DNA of 64,000 bases from a virus, in IMG/VR virus record IMGVR_UViG_3300027714_000004, positions 1-64,000 of that record. One strand, given 5' to 3'. Both the position numbers and the translations under genes were made by a program. Position 1 is the stretch's first letter, and each line of letters opens with the position of its first letter. The notes under the pieces are model-generated. The model was given only the letters and a program-made list of their open reading frames with translations, had not been told where the DNA came from and made no database searches. Positions 5,809 through 53,776 of this stretch are shown here, piece by piece.

Positions 5809-7416
5809 ATGACATCTTTTACTAAGAATTCCTATCTAGGAAATCCCCAAGTTAAGCGTGACGGTGTTGCGGAAGAGTGGGATAAGAAGAAACTCCGCGA
5901 ATACCGTAAGTGTATGAACGACCCAGCTTATTTCTGTAGGAAGTATGTTAAAGTCGTGCACCTTGATAGGGGTCTGGTACCTTTTAAGTTATACGATTAT
6001 CAAGAGAAGATGTTTGAACACTTCAATGATAATCGATTCTCCATCGTTCTTGCTTGTAGACAGTCCGGTAAATCTATATCTTCAGTAGGATACCTTCTAT
6101 GGTATTCTTTATTCCATCCGGAAAAGACTATTGCTATCCTTGCTAACAAAGGTGCGACTGCACGTGAGATGTTATCTCGTGTAACACTCATGTTAGAGAA
6201 CCTCCCATTCTTCCTACAGCCAGGATGTAAAGCACTTAACAAAGGGTCTATAGAGTTCTCTAATAACTCCCGCATCATCGCTGCAGCTACGTCTGGGTCT
6301 TCTATTCGTGGTATGTCGGTCAACCTATTGTTCCTAGATGAGTTCGCATTTGTAGAGAATGCGGCAGAGTTCTACACCTCTACTTACCCTGTAATCTCAT
6401 CTGGTAAAGACACGAAAGTTATCATAACAAGTACTGCTAACGGTATCGGTAATACTTACCAAAAGATATGGGAAGGTGCAGTACAGAAGGTTAATGAGTA
6501 TAAACCGTTCCGTGTTGACTGGTGGGATGTGCCTGGCCGAGATGACAAGTGGAAAGCACAAACTGTTGCAAACACTTCTCAGTTACAGTTTGACCAAGAG
6601 TTTGGTAACACATTCTTTGGTACTGGTAATACTCTTATTGAGGGTCAAGTACTTCTAGACTTACGTGCTAGAGAACCTTCTAGGAGATTAGAGGGTGGTG
6701 ACTTATTGGTCTATGAGGATGTGATTGAAGAGCATCAGTATATCATGACAGTAGATGTTTGTCAAGGGCGTGGACAGGATTATTCTACATTTACAGTCTT
6801 TGATGTCTCGGTACAACCGTTCAGACAGGTGTGTGTATATCGTAACAACATGATATCCCCGATACTATACCCTAACATAATATATAAATACGCTACAGCA
6901 TACAACGAAGCGTATGTTGTTATCGAGAATAATGATCAGGGTATGGTCGTGTGCGTAGGACTATACCAAGATTTAGAATATGAGAACATCCACCTAGAGT
7001 CTGCTATCCGAGCTGATGCCATCGGTATTCGCATGGACAGAAAGGTAAAGCGGATGGGATGTTCGTCGATTAAAGACATTATCGAAAACCATAAGTTAGA
7101 TCTGGTTGATGAAAATACCATCATGGAGGTGTCTACATTCGTCTCTAAGGGTACTTCTTACGAAGCTTCAGTAGGTAACCACGATGACTTAATGATGAAT
7201 CTGGTGATGTTTGGATACTTTGTCGGGACACAATCCTTCGGGGATATGACTAACGTCGATATCAAACAGATGTTATTTGATCAACGCATGAAAGAGATTG
7301 AAGATGATTTACCACCGTTTGGTATTATAGACGATGGTACAGAGTATGCTTCTACTACCGACTTATCAGACCCTTATAGTATGGACTGGACGAACTATGA
7401 ACCCGATGGTTGGTAA
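5809..7416 (+). CDS. gp17: Large terminase subunit gp17
   Basis: DNA-packaging motor: N-terminal ATPase and C-terminal RNase H-fold nuclease that cuts concatemeric DNA. Visible are the Q-motif region (YDYQEKMF, residues 62-69), Walker A CRQSGKS (83-89), Walker B LLFLDEF with catalytic DE (about 177-178), and the first nuclease Asp in MTVDVCQGRGQDYS (about 313-326). Later acidic residues (VIENNDQG; NHDDLMMN) fit the remaining nuclease centre. At 535 residues it is shorter than T4 gp17 (610). The gene order gp16, small protein, gp17, gp18 supports it. Confidence 0.97.
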   Translation: MTSFTKNSYLGNPQVKRDGVAEEWDKKKLREYRKCMNDPAYFCRKYVKVVHLDRGLVPFKLYDYQEKMFEHFNDNRFSIVLACRQSGKSISSVGYLLWYSLFHPEKTIAILANKGATAREMLSRVTLMLENLPFFLQPGCKALNKGSIEFSNNSRIIAAATSGSSIRGMSVNLLFLDEFAFVENAAEFYTSTYPVISSGKDTKVIITSTANGIGNTYQKIWEGAVQKVNEYKPFRVDWWDVPGRDDKWKAQTVANTSQLQFDQEFGNTFFGTGNTLIEGQVLLDLRAREPSRRLEGGDLLVYEDVIEEHQYIMTVDVCQGRGQDYSTFTVFDVSVQPFRQVCVYRNNMISPILYPNIIYKYATAYNEAYVVIENNDQGMVVCVGLYQDLEYENIHLESAIRADAIGIRMDRKVKRMGCSSIKDIIENHKLDLVDENTIMEVSTFVSKGTSYEASVGNHDDLMMNLVMFGYFVGTQSFGDMTNVDIKQMLFDQRMKEIEDDLPPFGIIDDGTEYASTTDLSDPYSMDWTNYEPDGW

Positions 7417-7428
7417 ATTTACGATAAG

Positions 7429-7436
7429 TATAAATA
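7429..7436 (+). promoter_or_regulatory. Late promoter before gp18
   Basis: TATAAATA stands 66 bp upstream of the tail sheath start, in the gap after gp17. Confidence 0.8.
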
Positions 7437-7502
7437 GATACATTGAAAGAACACTCCGTATTATGATTAACTTATTATACCTTAACTAAGAAGGACACTA
7501 CC

Positions 7503-9086
7503 ATGACTCTTTTATCTTCAGAGTCGCCATCCGTAACAGTACGAGAAATTGACTTAACAGGTATCGTACCTGCCGTCACTTCTACTACTGGTGCAATTGT
7601 AGGCGACTTTAATTGGGGCCCAGTAAACACACCTATTCTAATCGGTAACGAATCTGAACTGGCGTCTACTTTCGGTTCTCCACTATCAGGAAATGCATAT
7701 GCTGGCGATTTTCTATCCGCTTCATACTTCCTGAAATACTCTTCAAGCGCATTTATAATTCGTGCAGCTCGACCAACCATTCCAGCAGTTCCAGCAGTTC
7801 TAGATTCGGACTTAATCGAAGTAACTCCAGAAGTCCCAGAATATCCAGGCCATACAAAATCAACAGCCGGTGTTTTCACAGGGAAATATGAAGGTGCTCT
7901 CGGTAATACAATTACTGTAGCCGTAGCAGACGCAACATCTTTTCCTACTTGGGACTTTGAAGGTTACTTCACATCAGCTCCAGTAGGTGATGAACTTCAT
8001 GTTGTTGTCACACTTGGATATGTTTCAGGATCTGAATTAGGAAACATTGTCGAAACATACGAATTTGTTTCTACTGACGTTAATGCTAAACTTCCAAACG
8101 GTTCTAACAATTTCGCCAATGACGTTATTACTAAAGAATCTTCTTGGGTCGATGCTTCTGGCGTTCCAGCAGCAGGATTGTTCACGTTGGCAGGTGGTTC
8201 TGATGGAACTCCACTCCAAACTAGAGCGGATTACGTAAGTGCATATGACGGTTTCTTAAACAAAGAAGCTATCCAGTTAGATTTCCTAATTCCACCAGCG
8301 GGTGGTCAAGACGTAGCGGCAACCGTACATCAGAAACTTGTTACAGTTGCTACATCTCGTAAGGACTGTGTTGCAGTTATTTCCCCAACTTCAGGTGATG
8401 TCGATCATATGATATCATATGTTGGTACTCTTGCTCAAGATTCATCTTACTTGGTTATTGACGGAAACTGGTTTAAGGTTTACAACAAGTACCAAGATAA
8501 GTACGAGTTCATTCCAGCGGCATCTTCAACAGCAGGCGTTATGGCAGCTGCGGACGCAGTCTCTGCTCCTTGGTTCTCACCAGCTGGTTCACGTCGTGGA
8601 CAGTATCTAGGTGTTACCGAACTGTTGGTCAATCCTAGCAAAACAGAGCGTGATAAACTATACAAGAACGGAATTAATCCAGTTGTTAGTATCCCTGGCC
8701 AAGGTGTGATGTTATATGGTGACAAGACTCACCAATCACGTCCATCTGCATTTGATCGTATCAATGTTCGTCGACTATTCTTAGTCATCGAAAGAGCGAT
8801 CAGTAAAGCTGGTGAAAACGTAATGTTCGAATTCAACGATGAGTTTACTCGTGCAGAATTCGTAAACATCGTAGAACCATTCCTACGGGAAATTCAGGGT
8901 CGTCGCGGTATTACTGACTTCCGTGTTGTTTGTGATGCTACAAACAATACAGCAGAAGTCGTTGATCGCAACGAATTCATCGCAACTTGCTTCATTAAAC
9001 CAGCACGTTCAATCAACTACGTAACTTTAAACTTCGTAGCGGTAAGAACTGGTGTTGAGTTTGAAGAAGTCGTCGGTACAGTATAA
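7503..9086 (+). CDS. gp18: Tail sheath protein gp18
   Basis: Contractile tail sheath subunit. The 527-residue product opens with the N-terminal segment that forms the extended linker strand (SESPSVTVREIDLTG) and has the family C-terminal core from about residue 385 (NPVVSIPGQGVMLYGDKT, then RINVRRLFLVIERAI), which interlocks subunits. T4 gp18 is longer (659) because of extra surface domains, so the loss is likely in the exposed middle. A good ribosome site (AAGAAGGA) precedes the ATG. gp19 follows after 11 bp with its own AAGGAG site. Confidence 0.96.
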   Translation: MTLLSSESPSVTVREIDLTGIVPAVTSTTGAIVGDFNWGPVNTPILIGNESELASTFGSPLSGNAYAGDFLSASYFLKYSSSAFIIRAARPTIPAVPAVLDSDLIEVTPEVPEYPGHTKSTAGVFTGKYEGALGNTITVAVADATSFPTWDFEGYFTSAPVGDELHVVVTLGYVSGSELGNIVETYEFVSTDVNAKLPNGSNNFANDVITKESSWVDASGVPAAGLFTLAGGSDGTPLQTRADYVSAYDGFLNKEAIQLDFLIPPAGGQDVAATVHQKLVTVATSRKDCVAVISPTSGDVDHMISYVGTLAQDSSYLVIDGNWFKVYNKYQDKYEFIPAASSTAGVMAAADAVSAPWFSPAGSRRGQYLGVTELLVNPSKTERDKLYKNGINPVVSIPGQGVMLYGDKTHQSRPSAFDRINVRRLFLVIERAISKAGENVMFEFNDEFTRAEFVNIVEPFLREIQGRRGITDFRVVCDATNNTAEVVDRNEFIATCFIKPARSINYVTLNFVAVRTGVEFEEVVGTV

Positions 9087-43117: not shown

Positions 43118-43146
43118 TTGACTTCTAACTAAAATACGTGTATAAT
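43118..43146 (+). promoter_or_regulatory. Early-type promoter for SleB hydrolase
   Basis: TTGACT and TATAAT with 17 bp between, 30 bp before the hydrolase start. Confidence 0.82.
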
Positions 43147-43176
43147 ACCTCTTTAGATACCACTTTGGAGAACTAC

Positions 43177-43701
43177 ATGGTACGTTTAGCAGCAGCACTG
43201 TCTTTACTTTGTTTCTTTGGTTACATCAGTATCGTTGATGCAGAAACCCCAGACATAACAAAGAATAATGATCTCGAATGTCTCGCCCTGAATATATATC
43301 ACGAGGCCCGAAGTGAGAGTCTCGCGGGTCAGTACGCAGTCGCAGATGTCACCCTCAATCGTGTACAAGATCGACGATACCCGTCCACCATATGTGGAGT
43401 AGTTAAACAGGCAGTATTAAGTCAATGGGGTTTAGACCGAGGTATGTCTATCCCAAGGAAAAATATGTGTCAGTTCAGTTGGTATTGTGACGGTCTCGCA
43501 GATGAACCAGTAGAAACGTATTCTTGGTTACGTGCACAGGACATAGCACGAGACATGATATTTGTCCGGAAGTACCGAGGAATAACCGAAGGGTCTACTC
43601 ACTATCATGCAAATTATGTTAACCCTAAGTGGAGTTCTCATGAAAGTATGCGACTGATAGGTAGAATAGGCGATCACATTTTCTATAAAGAGGAATACTA
43701 A
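43177..43701 (+). CDS. SleB-type cell-wall hydrolase, secreted
   Basis: The 174-residue product starts at the ATG after TTGGAGAAC; an earlier in-frame ATG sits at the promoter -10. A signal peptide (VRLAAALSLLCFFGYISIVD, cleavage near DA/ET) precedes the SleB/CwlJ catalytic domain: LALNIYHEARSESLAGQYAV with the catalytic Glu, then VTLNRVQDRRYPSTICGVV and QFSWYCDG. It probably cuts peptidoglycan (lytic transglycosylase type) from the periplasm, as endolysin or helper lysin. Export without holin is possible. Confidence 0.9.
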   Translation: MVRLAAALSLLCFFGYISIVDAETPDITKNNDLECLALNIYHEARSESLAGQYAVADVTLNRVQDRRYPSTICGVVKQAVLSQWGLDRGMSIPRKNMCQFSWYCDGLADEPVETYSWLRAQDIARDMIFVRKYRGITEGSTHYHANYVNPKWSSHESMRLIGRIGDHIFYKEEY

Positions 43702-47742: not shown

Positions 47743-47762
47743 ATTAATGATTAAGGAAAATG

Positions 47763-48029
47763 ATGAAAGTCTTACATAATAATGTTTTAGTTACACAAGA
47801 TAAAGCAAAAGAATCCACAACAGCTAGCGGTCTGATTATCTCATCTGCAAAACCTACTGGACAAACTCCAGCCAAGGTAATTAGTATGAGTATCGAAGTT
47901 GCGTCAAAGAATACTATCGCAGCGGGTAACACCGTATACTTCGATTGGAGTAAGGCGATTGCAGTAGAACTGGACGGTATCCAGTGTGCAGTTATTGATT
48001 ATAACGACATTAAGTTGATTGTAGACTAG
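47763..48029 (+). CDS. GroES-like co-chaperonin (gp31 role)
   Basis: The 88-residue product (start at the second of two adjacent ATGs because AAGGA is then well spaced) has the GroES pattern: KVLHNNVLVTQDKAKESTTA, mobile loop ending SGLIISS, then PAKVISM, a GNTVYFDW block and QCAVIDYNDIKLIV. In T4 gp31 replaces GroES to fold gp23 with host GroEL. This protein is closer to bacterial GroES than to gp31 but probably does the same. Only 20 bp after tRNA-Asp. Confidence 0.85.
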   Translation: MKVLHNNVLVTQDKAKESTTASGLIISSAKPTGQTPAKVISMSIEVASKNTIAAGNTVYFDWSKAIAVELDGIQCAVIDYNDIKLIVD

Positions 48030-48221: not shown

Positions 48222-48250
48222 TTGACAAAGAGAAGTAATTAGTGTATCAT
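48222..48250 (+). promoter_or_regulatory. Early-type promoter for tRNA-Ser and peroxidase
   Basis: TTGACA and TATCAT with 17 bp between, 13 bp before tRNA-Ser; the peroxidase gene could be read from the same transcript. Confidence 0.8.
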
Positions 48251-48263
48251 ACGTAGTTGAAAT

Positions 48264-48351
48264 GGAGAGTTGGCAGAGTGGTCGAATGCACCTGACTTGA
48301 AATCAGACGAACCGCAAGGTTCCATAGGTTCGAATCCTATACTCTCCGCCA
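48264..48351 (+). tRNA. tRNA-Ser (TGA)
   Basis: Acceptor GGAGAGT/ACTCTCC, anticodon loop CTTGAAA giving TGA, long variable arm with ACCGCAAGGT, CCA encoded. Confidence 0.95.
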
Positions 48352-48380: not shown

Positions 48381-49817
48381 ATGAATACTAAAGTTTTACT
48401 ATTGCTATCCTCTATATTCCTAACTGCATGTGGTGGTGACGAGTCGTCCACAACTCCTTTAGAGTCTGTTGCCAATACTCCGTCCACACCAACTGTTGCA
48501 GAACCTACGGATTTAGAGATTGCGTTAGAAGATCTCCAAGATATCATGAACGCAACGTCTCCGACTGGTTCCTATGAGGGTTATATCCTCCCAGAGAGCG
48601 ATGACTTCCTCAACATCCCCCAAGACCCCAACAACCCAATTACTGCTGAAAAAGTAGCACTAGGTAAGCTGATATACCACGAAACTGGTATCACTTCTGA
48701 TGGTCTGGGTAAGACCGATATGGATAACACGTGGTCTTGTGCGTCTTGTCACAATGGACAGAACGGGTTTAAGTCTGGTATTCGACAGGGTATTGGTGAA
48801 GGTGGTGTTGGATTCAACCATCGAACTTTTGCCGAAGGTATGGAAGAACTTGCTGATATCCAACCTGTAACATCCCCTACTGTTCTTAATACCGCATATC
48901 AAGAAGTGATGTTATGGAACGGTCAGTTCGGTAATGTTGTGGGTGGTATCGTTAATGTTGGTATTGATCCAGAGAGACACTTTACCGAAGGTACTCCTAA
49001 AGGCGAGAACTTACGTGGATTTGCAGGACTTGAAACTCAAGCACTCGCTGGTTTAGTGGTTCACCGAATGAATGCAGCAGAACCGGACTCTATACTATCT
49101 ACTAATGAGAAGTATCAGATGATGTTTGAGGCGGCATACGGAACATCACGACCGAATGATATGTTAGAGGCAGCTGCTCTTGCGATTGCCGCATACGAAC
49201 GTACTATACTTGCAAACCAAGCTCCTTTTCAAAAGATGTTACGCGGTGACGCAAATGCATTATCTTTAGAAGAAGTTGAAGGTGCGAAGGTATTCTTCGG
49301 TAAGGGTGGTTGTGCGGGTTGTCATAATGGCCCTGCGTTATCTTCACCAGTTGGTTCCTTGGCAAGTGAAGTCTTTATGACACTGGGATTCAATGACTTG
49401 GATATGTGGGAAGATACAGTTGGAGAAGTCAACCAAGCGACAAAAGAAGGTCGTGCTGGATTTACGGGTGATGAGATGGAGAAGTATGCTTTCAAAGTTC
49501 CACCACTATATAACCTCAAAGATACGAACGTGTTTGGTCATGGTGGTTCATTCACCTCTGTAGCAGATGTTGTTAGATACAAGATCATGGCAGTGGCAGA
49601 ACACTCTGAAGTCGAAAGTACAAACCTAGACCATCGTTTCGTCCCTCTGGACTTGACTGATGAAGAAGTATCTAACTTGGTGACTTTCCTAGAAGACGGT
49701 CTACATGATCCGGATTTGATGCGGTATGTTCCTGAAGAACTTCCTAGCGGTAACTGCGTAACTAACAACGATGAACAGTCTAGAGAAGAATTAGGGTGTA
49801 CCAATAATGGTCAGTAA
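48381..49817 (+). CDS. Di-haem cytochrome c peroxidase (MauG/CcpA family) lipoprotein
   Basis: The 478-residue product is an exported c-type cytochrome. A signal peptide with lipobox LTAC (Cys17) is followed by a Ser/Thr/Pro linker, then two haem-binding motifs, CASCH (120-124) and CAGCH (311-315), in the spacing of bacterial di-haem peroxidases. Further family parts are SPTVLNTAYQEVMLWNGQFG (about 165-184) and the C-terminal PPLYNLKDTNVFGHGGS block. The start is the ATG at 48381, 29 bp after tRNA-Ser; an earlier frame overlaps the tRNA. It would reduce peroxide or oxidise a protein in the periplasm, using host haem maturation. It looks acquired from a bacterium. Confidence 0.93.
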   Translation: MNTKVLLLLSSIFLTACGGDESSTTPLESVANTPSTPTVAEPTDLEIALEDLQDIMNATSPTGSYEGYILPESDDFLNIPQDPNNPITAEKVALGKLIYHETGITSDGLGKTDMDNTWSCASCHNGQNGFKSGIRQGIGEGGVGFNHRTFAEGMEELADIQPVTSPTVLNTAYQEVMLWNGQFGNVVGGIVNVGIDPERHFTEGTPKGENLRGFAGLETQALAGLVVHRMNAAEPDSILSTNEKYQMMFEAAYGTSRPNDMLEAAALAIAAYERTILANQAPFQKMLRGDANALSLEEVEGAKVFFGKGGCAGCHNGPALSSPVGSLASEVFMTLGFNDLDMWEDTVGEVNQATKEGRAGFTGDEMEKYAFKVPPLYNLKDTNVFGHGGSFTSVADVVRYKIMAVAEHSEVESTNLDHRFVPLDLTDEEVSNLVTFLEDGLHDPDLMRYVPEELPSGNCVTNNDEQSREELGCTNNGQ

Positions 49818-49974
49818 GAACGATATCACCGGAGATGCGATTCGATCCAAAACTCTATCTCAACAAGGTAGGGACAATTGGGACAACATCTTCGGTAAGA
49901 AGGATAAGGTTGATACAATTATACCTGAAACGAAAAAAGAAATCGTTATAAATAAAGATAGTAAGAAAGTATAA
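49807..49974 (+). CDS. Small phage protein with ITGD motif
   Basis: The 55-residue product overlaps the peroxidase 3' end by 11 bp. It opens SKNDITGDAIRSK and has GRDNWDNIFGKK, the pattern of a small protein seen in many phages (ITGD, then RDN-x-D-x-IFGK). The tail is Lys-rich. Function unknown. Confidence 0.75.
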   Translation: MVSKNDITGDAIRSKTLSQQGRDNWDNIFGKKDKVDTIIPETKKEIVINKDSKKV

Positions 49975-49994: not shown

Positions 49995-50070
49995 GGGGGT
50001 ATAGCTCAGATGGGAGAGCGTCGCCCTTGCACGGCGAAGGTCTGCGGTTCGATCCCGCATACCTCCACCA
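49995..50070 (+). tRNA. tRNA-Ala (TGC)
   Basis: Acceptor GGGGGTA/TACCTCC (one G-T pair), anticodon loop CTTGCAC giving TGC, T-arm TGCGG/CCGCA, CCA encoded. Confidence 0.95.
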
Positions 50071-50247
50071 TATTCCCCACCGTACGGGGCTCGGTACTAA
50101 AGAGATGAACCACGCGCCTTTCATCGCGCACTAACTTGATAACTGCGATCTCTCATAACGTGCATGTTAAAAATGCCAAGCAGTTGAGTTAAGGTTCTCC
50201 AACCATAATAGTACCATTAAGAGCCCCGTACTCGTGGGGATCTTTTT
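50071..50247 (+). ncRNA. Structured RNA with terminator and alternative stem (candidate)
   Basis: The gap from 50071 to 50339 has no gene. Its first part can close into a long stem, GTACGGGGCTC (50082-50092) with its exact complement GAGCCCCGTAC (50221-50231). Inside lie GAACC/GGTTC, AGAGAT/ATCTCT and GCGC/GCGC pairs. The 3' arm overlaps the left half of a terminator hairpin (CCCC/GGGG, 50224-50239, then ATCTTTTT), so the two folds exclude each other. It may be a stable RNA after tRNA-Ala or a readthrough switch. Confidence 0.55.
50224..50247 (+). terminator. Terminator after tRNA-Ala/structured RNA
   Basis: A CCCC/GGGG hairpin with an eight-base loop is followed by ATCTTTTT. The left arm also belongs to a competing long stem. 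Confidence 0.65.
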
Positions 50248-50281: not shown

Positions 50282-50310
50282 TTGACAATACATTCGTATT
50301 GGGGTATAAT
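50282..50310 (+). promoter_or_regulatory. Early-type promoter for PD-(D/E)XK nuclease
   Basis: Perfect TTGACA, 17 bp, TATAAT, 30 bp before the nuclease start. Confidence 0.9.
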
Positions 50311-50339: not shown

Positions 50340-51059
50340 ATGTTTGTACATGCTCCTGTGACCTTGACCGAAATGACTGCTGTTACTACTGACACTGGTC
50401 GTCAATACATGACACCCGAAGGTGTGAATCTACCTTCTATCACTACTGTTCTTTCTATTCTCTCTCGCGACTCCATTGCTAAATGGCGTGCTCGTGTCGG
50501 TGAGAAGGAAGCAAACCGCATCTCCTATCGCGCATCTACGCGTGGTACGTCAGTTCACGAAATCTGTGAGAAGTACGTAAACAACGATCCTGACTGGAAT
50601 AAGTACATGGCAATCAACCCTGATAATGGGGAAATGAAGATGACCAAACGTACTCCTGATTTAATCGATTCGTTCTTGAAGATGAAACCAATCCTTGACG
50701 AACGTTTGACTACTGTTTATGCTCAAGAAGCTCCACTGTACTCTACCCATCTGGGTGTTGCGGGTCGTGTGGATTGCGTTGGTATCTTCGATGGTAAGTT
50801 ATCTATCATTGACTACAAGACTGCTATGAAACCTAAACGTCTTGACTGGATCAAGAACTACTTCATGCAAGAGTCTGCATATGCGATCATGTGGGAAGAG
50901 CGTACAGGAATGCCTATCACTCAGTTGGTGACTATCATCTCTGTCGACAATCACGAACCTCAAGTATTTGTAGAACACCGTGATAACTGGGTGCGGCCAC
51001 TTCGTGATACTATTGCTCAATATAACGAAGAGAATTCCGCAAATTCATTTGACATATAA
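50340..51059 (+). CDS. PD-(D/E)XK nuclease, RecB-like
   Basis: The 239-residue product has the nuclease core: HEICEKY helix (His about 75), GVAGRVDCVGIFDGK (Asp about 144), the LSIIDYKTA strand with D-x-K (about 154-162), and Gln in MQESAYAIMW. This is the exonuclease/RecB-nuclease layout with all catalytic residues. It has its own early promoter, so it acts in infection, e.g. recombination or DNA processing. Marine phages carry similar genes. Confidence 0.88.
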   Translation: MFVHAPVTLTEMTAVTTDTGRQYMTPEGVNLPSITTVLSILSRDSIAKWRARVGEKEANRISYRASTRGTSVHEICEKYVNNDPDWNKYMAINPDNGEMKMTKRTPDLIDSFLKMKPILDERLTTVYAQEAPLYSTHLGVAGRVDCVGIFDGKLSIIDYKTAMKPKRLDWIKNYFMQESAYAIMWEERTGMPITQLVTIISVDNHEPQVFVEHRDNWVRPLRDTIAQYNEENSANSFDI

Positions 51060-52417: not shown

Positions 52418-53776
52418 ATGGCACAATTTAGTGTAGAGAGACAACAGAGTTTATTCAACGCAGACCTTCACGAGGTCAACTTATTGGCACGATCTGACGG
52501 GTATCCTATCAAAGAAGATAATTACCTGCACGTTGGTGAATATACTTCGAAGAACCGAATTAAGGTATCTGGATACGAGACAGTATTTTTCAACACATTT
52601 CAGTACGGTAAAGAGTCTGATGTTTGGGATGAAGCGACTTCTGGGGATGCTGACGCAACCCATAACCTTAACTCAAACATGGTTGCCCTACGTGTTGGCG
52701 GAACTGCTGGCGCATCGGTCTTTAGACAAACTCGAAATGTACAGAGATATATTCCTGGCCGACAGTCGCAGTTAACCTTTGCAATAAGAATGGAAGCTCC
52801 TGTTACTGGTATTCGTCGAAGATTTGGTTTGTTTGAAGAAAATAATGGTTTCTTCTTCGAGGATGCTGGCGTTGAGGTCGAGGGGATTCCTCAGTACAAC
52901 GTAGTCATTCGTTCTAAAACAAGTGGTTCTGTTGTTGAAACGCGAGTACCTCGCGAGGCATGGAACGGAGATAAGTTAGATGGTACTGGCCAGAGTGGCA
53001 TCATTGCTGATTCTACTAAACAACAATTAATATCATTTGATTATGAGTGGTATGGAGCAGGCCAAGTTAGAGTTCTATGGAACATTGGTGGGAGAAATAT
53101 ACTTATTCACACCTTCAATCATTCTAATATACTACCTGACGTTTGGTGCTCTACCCCATTCTTACCCATTAGAATGGAACTTGAATGTATCTCTACGATT
53201 GGTGGTGATCATTATATGTATCAAGGGTCAAACAGTTTGGTCAGTGAAGGTGATGGTGGATACGGACATAAGATCGGTATCGCAGAGAATGTTAGTTCTC
53301 CGATCACAGGCACTACAACTAGTTCTGCAAGCATATGGTATCCTATACTAAGTATTAGATTAAAACCTAATGATTTAAAGGGTGTCGTATTACCAACATT
53401 TTTTCAAGTAGCAACCGCTGATAACACTAACTTGTTCTATAGAGTTGTTCGCAATGCGGTGATACCCACTGAGGTTGTTGCTGGACAAGATGGGCCGCAA
53501 CCTTGGTTAAATCAAAGAGACGCTGATGCTTTCACCCAGTATCAAACCTACATTTCTCCTGTGGCAATCGCTGATAATACCGATCAAGGGGTTTCTATTG
53601 ACTCAGGATTCATTACTGGTTCGGGGGGTGATCGAATTTCTGTAGATCCCAATACTCAGTATCAACTCGGTAGAACAGGAATGGGTACTGTAAGTGATAC
53701 ATATACCATACTATGCGCAACAACAGGCTCAAATAAATCTGTTCTCGCGGCAATGACGTGGATTGAACAGAGATAA
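52418..53776 (+). CDS. Structural virion protein, beta-rich
   Basis: The 452-residue product is mostly beta and Gly/Asn/Ser-rich. Segments such as TRNVQRYIPGRQSQLTFAIR and GLFEENNGFFFEDAG recur in tail or fibre-type proteins of marine phages. It has an AGGAG ribosome site. No head-targeting peptide. The exact virion site is not visible. Confidence 0.65.
   Translation: MAQFSVERQQSLFNADLHEVNLLARSDGYPIKEDNYLHVGEYTSKNRIKVSGYETVFFNTFQYGKESDVWDEATSGDADATHNLNSNMVALRVGGTAGASVFRQTRNVQRYIPGRQSQLTFAIRMEAPVTGIRRRFGLFEENNGFFFEDAGVEVEGIPQYNVVIRSKTSGSVVETRVPREAWNGDKLDGTGQSGIIADSTKQQLISFDYEWYGAGQVRVLWNIGGRNILIHTFNHSNILPDVWCSTPFLPIRMELECISTIGGDHYMYQGSNSLVSEGDGGYGHKIGIAENVSSPITGTTTSSASIWYPILSIRLKPNDLKGVVLPTFFQVATADNTNLFYRVVRNAVIPTEVVAGQDGPQPWLNQRDADAFTQYQTYISPVAIADNTDQGVSIDSGFITGSGGDRISVDPNTQYQLGRTGMGTVSDTYTILCATTGSNKSVLAAMTWIEQR

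Follow-up and report, generated by a model that had tools for sequence, protein, structure and literature searches.

A marine T4-like phage lineage carries a gene for a predicted di-haem lipoprotein of the bCCP/MauG superfamily and maintains it under selection. The gene lies in a 64,000-nucleotide stretch of viral DNA (the window) taken from a virus record of 145,426 bp, and it was captured long ago from an Alteromonadaceae-like gammaproteobacterium. Its product is assigned here to a subfamily of its own that is common to bacteria and phages. We give about even weight to the reading that this selected phage gene encodes an early, outer-membrane-anchored, host-matured and peroxide-using enzyme, which most likely serves in peroxide defence at the envelope.

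A Genuine Gene of T4-Like Phages

The record that holds the window encodes a T4-like gene set with terminase, tail sheath, portal, major head protein and DNA polymerase, and the nearest matches of its virion protein (52418-53776) come from T4-like cyanophages, with at most 54% identity. Phage C48C1 (OQ984149, Kyanoviridae), for which a complete, circular genome of 156 kb is available, encodes a 64% identical di-haem protein that is annotated as hypothetical. The gene order of C48C1 matches that of the window: tRNA-Ser, di-haem gene, tRNA-Ala and then the exonuclease. In IMG/VR, at least 62 contigs from 59 metagenomes carry the gene, a number that is a lower bound because the scan used short peptide patterns. 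A preliminary description of the locus had called the gene phage-encoded, had proposed to look for it in other phage genomes and had named an assembly chimera as the finding that would overturn this view. The T4-like record, the C48C1 orthologue and the metagenome contigs confirm that the sequence belongs to a phage, and the conserved gene and gene order in a circular genome, together with the contigs, refute the chimera.

It is thus barely conceivable that the gene is an assembly chimera or a contaminant. Four of the five matches in the phage collection do resemble host DNA in phage records, but nothing of this kind was found for the window, and the GC content of the gene (44%) is close to that of the window (41.5%). 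The di-haem peroxidase matches in the four records AFYI01000003, AGRM01000003, OR850884 and OR845265 of this collection look like enterobacterial DNA in phage entries rather than phage genes.

Counting CxxCH motifs in ORFs of at least 60 aa revealed no other c-type cytochrome in the whole 145 kb of the phage. The literature searched contained no earlier report of a phage-encoded di-haem peroxidase or MauG-like protein, in line with the earlier statement that no well-described phage system of this kind is known; with subscription literature thinly covered, this negative result is a lead rather than a proof. The product had no match in PHROG, and no predicted viral structure in BFVD matched it.

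Organization of the Locus

The features of the locus are compiled in Table 1. Promoter, tRNA-Ser, di-haem gene, small ORF, tRNA-Ala and terminator likely form one transcription unit. The gene indeed sits within a tRNA cluster behind a promoter-like site of early type, as originally described, and this site would predict early expression. Two other sites match at 12/12 positions, one before the tRNA-Asn/Leu pair (46797) and one before the exonuclease (50282). All 17 kin phages of the tRNA type that were examined have a site with 11-12 matches, at -146 to -171 from the ATG when tRNA-Ser adjoins the di-haem gene and at -72 to -74 when tRNA-Ser is distant. Because the site is about 73 bp upstream when tRNA-Ser has moved, the promoter travels with the di-haem gene and not only with the tRNA. 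The exonuclease is encoded near the di-haem gene in 37 of 42 phage loci, the window locus included.

Two further genes of this region were recorded. A GroES-like co-chaperonin (Cpn10) of 89 aa is encoded between tRNA-Asp and tRNA-Gln (window 47760-48029), and window 43138-43701, which 13 phage loci have kept upstream of the tRNA array, encodes a putative cell wall hydrolase (Hydrolase_2) whose N-terminus is signal-like.

Table 1. The di-haem gene, the motifs of its product and the neighbouring features, in window coordinates.
Feature	Position	Strand	Remarks
Sigma-70 type promoter-like site TTGACA-17-TATCAT, before tRNA-Ser and di-haem gene	48222..48250	+	11/12 matches
tRNA-Ser(UGA)	48264..48351	+	syntenic in kin phages
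Gene of the di-haem CCP/MauG-superfamily lipoprotein	48381..49817	+	stop-free ORF, 478 aa
Signal peptide and lipobox LTAC (residues 14-17) with lipid-carrying Cys17, then Gly, no Asp at +2 (predicted)	48381..48431	+	
CASCH, haem c site 1, residues 120-124	48738..48752	+	Cys/Cys/His in 77/77
Glu140, at the position of the CCP distal His (GIGE here, SIGH in CCP)	48798..48800	+	
His228-Arg229, invariant (77/77), at the position of the CCP/MauG catalytic Glu (VEM)	49062..49067	+	register +/-1 residue
CAGCH, haem c site 2, residues 311-315	49311..49325	+	76/76
Tyr400-Lys401; Lys401 at the predicted distal axial-ligand position of the second haem	49578..49583	+	sequence alignment
Cys459 ... Cys473, C-terminal pair	49755..49799	+	both Cys in 72/72 sequences with these columns
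Small ORF (55 aa) overlapping the 3' end of the di-haem gene, gene status uncertain	49807..49974	+	
tRNA-Ala(UGC)	49995..50070	+	most kin phages have it 3' of the di-haem gene
Terminator-like hairpin after tRNA-Ala, end of unit	50224..50239	+	
Phage exonuclease, PD-(D/E)XK, phrog_298, syntenic anchor	50340..51059	+	perfect promoter of its own at 50282-50310

Selection and Distribution among Related Phages

Purifying selection on the phage di-haem gene is clear. Pairwise dN/dS values of the phage copies are mostly 0.05-0.13 and reach 0.23-0.28 at the highest, the exact ratios being rough because dS is near saturation in several pairs. With a bona fide phage genome, a bacterial origin and purifying selection, the gene has the genomic attributes of a candidate auxiliary metabolic gene.

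Loci were counted by hand on 80 contigs that contain the neighbouring exonuclease. The di-haem gene is present in 32 of these contigs and absent from 34 that have more than 4 kb of upstream sequence, while 13 had too little sequence to judge and one was left out. All but one of the 34 contigs lacking the gene also lack the tRNA array, and gene and tRNAs occur together in 32 of the 66 judgeable loci. This joint presence and absence indicates that the di-haem gene and the tRNA array constitute a cassette in one part of the phage group. Neither of them is found on four contigs with exonucleases that are 86-88% identical to that of the window. The gene also occurs in a second, tRNA-free context (loci L038-L041), and in L038 a radical SAM-SPASM gene (7206-8093) lies directly 3' of it, its start overlapping the stop codon. 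In a related phage without the di-haem gene, the stretch upstream of the exonuclease encodes successive small proteins whose starts are signal-like (L125, 700-3500).

A peroxiredoxin (Redoxin/AhpC-TSA) was detected in 18 fetched loci (overlapping contigs included), all of them on contigs with the di-haem gene, and in none of the 34 comparable loci without it. In several kin phages the peroxiredoxin is encoded upstream of the di-haem gene, for example at 2349-2942 in L042, 1120-1680 in L038 and 3276-3785 in L225. A small protein that is secreted or has a lipobox, and that contains a zincin-like HEVAH motif, recurs in the tRNA cassette (L006 5240-5599, L042 8309-8689 and 20 more kin loci, in upstream position), and the two members tested had no Pfam match. 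It was ruled out as a general partner of the di-haem protein because it is absent from the window.

Bacterial Origin and a Copy in Haliea

The phylogeny against bacterial genes that had been suggested for this locus places the phage genes within an Alteromonadaceae lineage. In the maximum-likelihood tree they branch from gammaproteobacterial Alteromonadaceae-like genes, also when the analysis was repeated with more rows, and Bacteroidota copies are located further out. Lipoproteins of Alteromonadaceae (Glaciecola/Alteromonas; L044, L046 and L048) belong to the same orthologous family, with about 50-55% identity end to end, and share the lipobox, both CxxCH motifs, His228-Arg229, Lys401 and the C-terminal Cys pair with the phage protein. 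In contrast to the phage gene, they are chromosomally encoded in varied single-gene contexts without tRNA or phage neighbours. The divergent phage copies L224 and L225 are placed in the tree with weak support, and therefore a second capture may be conceived for them.

One bacterial copy, found in a Haliea MAG (L043; CAJXWP010000006.1, 7836-9335), has a well-supported position within the phage clade, and a tree that holds all phage rows together without this copy was rejected (p-AU 0.0013). The GC3 of the gene is 0.42, compared to 0.55-0.57 for its neighbours, and among 140 genomes of the family to which the MAG belongs, 139 have no di-haem gene. Its nesting within the phage clade and its absence from the family genomes rule out L043 as a plain bacterial donor. 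These data, which for L043 come from only one MAG contig, whose end is about 3 kb away from the gene, suggest as the simplest reading that a phage captured the gene from bacteria and that it later returned to a bacterial (Haliea) chromosome. Upstream, this contig has genes resembling alaS and lysC, an ORF similar to csrA and a tRNA-Ser, with gene names assigned by eye from the sequence. The L043 gene has an NSG repeat run after the lipobox and is located in a gene-poor stretch downstream of the csrA-like ORF and the tRNA-Ser.

A Subfamily of Its Own within the bCCP/MauG Superfamily

By its motifs, the product is a two-CxxCH member of the bCCP/MauG superfamily with two cytochrome c-like domains, which are predicted to be loaded with haem. 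It matches Pfam CCP_MauG with 1.1e-23 and 85 bits, compared to a gathering cut-off of 25.6. The lipobox and the two CxxCH motifs of the preliminary description were found intact and at the same residues in the 478-aa translation. Cys17 is kept in 72 of 72 homologues with an N-terminus in the alignment, the haem motifs are intact in all of the 77 homologues wherever the sequence extends that far, and Trp179 is conserved in all compared homologues. Cys459 and Cys473 likely form a disulfide. The AlphaFold2 model of the product has a pLDDT of 84 and a pTM of 0.86, and Foldseek ranked bacterial CCPs and MbnH on top (E ~1e-13, TMt 0.70-0.75), with MauG lower. Neither a characterised function nor a solved structure was found for any member of the subfamily, bacterial ones included, and the nearest solved structure has about 25% identity.

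The assignment to an enzyme class depends on a few residues, which were compared in profile alignments with CCPs and with MauG/MbnH-like proteins from one bacterial family. At the position of the CCP distal His, 72 of 77 sequences have Glu and five have Asp. The second haem has its distal-ligand position 14 residues downstream of a conserved His; there, Met is found in 9/9 CCPs and Tyr in 32/32 MauG/MbnH-like proteins, but Lys in 75/75 sequences of the phage and bacterial di-haem subfamily. Solved sequences concur, with Met at this position in 1nml and, in an ungapped reading, Tyr in 6e1c. In this mapping, which rests on sequence and not on model coordinates, Lys401 would be the distal ligand of the second haem, and a ligand shift to the adjacent Tyr400 is possible.

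What had been termed blocks of a "MauG/CcpA family" are therefore superfamily blocks, which are present, while the residues diagnostic of CcpA are absent. The name cytochrome c peroxidase is not supported: the distal His and the catalytic Glu of CCPs are missing, and Lys replaces the Met ligand of the electron-accepting haem. CcpA membership is excluded by these substitutions (Glu/Asp, His-Arg and Lys, respectively), and membership in MauG (TIGR03791, 80 of 443.85 bits) or MbnH (TIGR04039, 103.5 of 362.85 bits) by the scores and by Lys401 instead of Tyr. The best NCBIfam scores were obtained with the MauG-like families TIGR03981 and TIGR04039, and all are far below the cut-off. TIGR03981 (His-Xaa-Ser system-associated MauG-like), the top match with 1e-31, resembles the product in its MauG-like C-terminal half; the alignment is limited to residues 243-412, and its 110 bits compared to a cut-off of 340 exclude membership.

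The product shares the fold, two haem sites, the Trp of the WxG block and a conserved His block before the second-haem distal ligand with CCPs (3o5c, 1nml, 1eb7), but differs from them by Glu140, His228-Arg229, Lys401, about 150 extra residues and the lipid anchor. With MbnH (6e1c) and MauG (3l4m), which match it structurally with a TMt of 0.65-0.70, it has in common a first haem without distal His and a non-Met residue on the distal side of the second haem. These proteins have a Tyr ligand and a catalytic Glu, whereas the phage protein has Lys and His-Arg. No conserved partner gene for an MbnP- or pre-MADH-like protein was seen in the phage and bacterial neighbourhoods, judged from ORFs and clusters. 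Tentatively, and with less than even confidence, we propose a third bCCP/MauG class in marine T4-like phages, in which the second haem would be His/Lys-ligated and the first haem would face a distal His-Arg pair; it would act as an early envelope enzyme in infection, and its gene would have been handed back to a bacterial chromosome.

Viral alaS, hemO and pcyX are phage auxiliary tetrapyrrole genes from aquatic environments (PMC11480375). Like the di-haem gene, they are aquatic phage genes that touch haem metabolism, but their enzymes make or degrade tetrapyrroles in the cytoplasm, whereas the di-haem product is predicted to be a secreted haem c enzyme.

Proposed Role and Alternative Explanations

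Lipobox proteins with CxxCH motifs are exported via Sec, are lipidated and receive haem from the Ccm system, and the lack of an Asp after the lipobox Cys directs lipoproteins to the outer membrane. As Cys17 is not followed by Asp, the phage protein is predicted to reside there. In the infected cell, host RNA polymerase would transcribe the gene early from the sigma-70 promoter that it shares with tRNA-Ser, host Sec would export the product, Lgt and Lol would lipidate and sort it, and Ccm would attach the two haems. The claimed dependence on host c-type cytochrome maturation is supported by the presence of CcmF in four of four candidate-host relatives and its absence from the phage. In the bCCP/MauG superfamily the first haem is the one that reacts with peroxide; here, this reaction would be permitted in the envelope by the His-Arg pair and by the open side distal to the haem. 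The second haem would pass electrons via the conserved Trp179 and, if ligated by Lys, would have a low potential as in MauG rather than in CCP. The net effect would most likely be the removal of H2O2 or organic peroxide at the envelope, keeping the infected cell alive and respiring until lysis.

Peroxide removal is the leading role because all 18 peroxiredoxin loci belong to contigs with the di-haem gene, and peroxide defence at the envelope is likely. The evidence is indirect, as the window phage itself has no kin-type peroxiredoxin in its 145 kb. Another argument against this role is that about half of the otherwise similar phages manage without the di-haem gene; around the genes of the cellular relatives there is no conserved oxidative-stress neighbourhood. 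Since the distal His, the catalytic Glu and the Met ligand of CCPs are missing, CcpA-like electron transfer from a cytochrome c donor should not be assumed, and with Glu140, His228-Arg229 and Lys401 in their place, cytochrome c may not be the source of electrons with which the protein reduces peroxide, if it does so. The main rival is a MauG/MbnH-like oxidase. Peroxide would then drive the oxidation of aromatic residues in a specific envelope protein, which might be a receptor or porin of the host or be encoded by the phage, and could cause, e.g., a surface change or superinfection exclusion. MauG and MbnH oxidize proteins in this way, with a peroxide haem that is open and a second haem that is ligated by Tyr, and the phage protein resembles them in the missing distal His, the replaced Met ligand, the top NCBIfam scores and the presence of MbnH 6e1c among the best structural matches; the radical SAM-SPASM gene that adjoins the di-haem gene in L038 also fits. 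Yet these scores are far below the cut-offs (110/340, 104/363 and 80/444 bits), no conserved partner gene adjoins in bacteria or phages, and the ligand position is Lys and not Tyr. We consider this oxidase function unlikely, but worth keeping in mind.

Two haems c with a conserved Trp between them and a lipoprotein anchor, in the sole c-type cytochrome of the phage, would also be consistent with an electron sink or redox modulator of the envelope, which passes electrons from the respiratory chain or quinol to peroxide or oxygen and alters respiration rather than detoxifying. However, the second haem, if ligated by Lys, should have a low potential that is unsuited to c-type donors, and a quinol-oxidising part is missing, which makes this function improbable. 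More improbable still is that the gene is a bystander, hitch-hiking with little benefit in a tRNA cassette that is swapped between phages and chromosomes. The strict linkage to the tRNA array and the apparent transfer into the Haliea chromosome would be in line with such cargo, but the low dN/dS of most pairs, the intact motifs in all copies, the own promoter at about -73 when the gene is apart from tRNA-Ser and the tRNA-free context in L038-L041 argue against it.

Concluding Remarks

To our knowledge, most redox genes described from phages to date function in the cytoplasm or at the photosystem. If the gene does yield a lipid-anchored haem c enzyme, conserved and equipped with a promoter, some lytic phages would invest early in the redox chemistry of the host envelope and rely on host Ccm and lipoprotein export. 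The invariant Lys, if it is a ligand, would add to this well-studied superfamily of enzymes a natural ligand state that is new. Moreover, the finding makes it possible to test whether phage production in the sea is limited by cell-surface peroxide.
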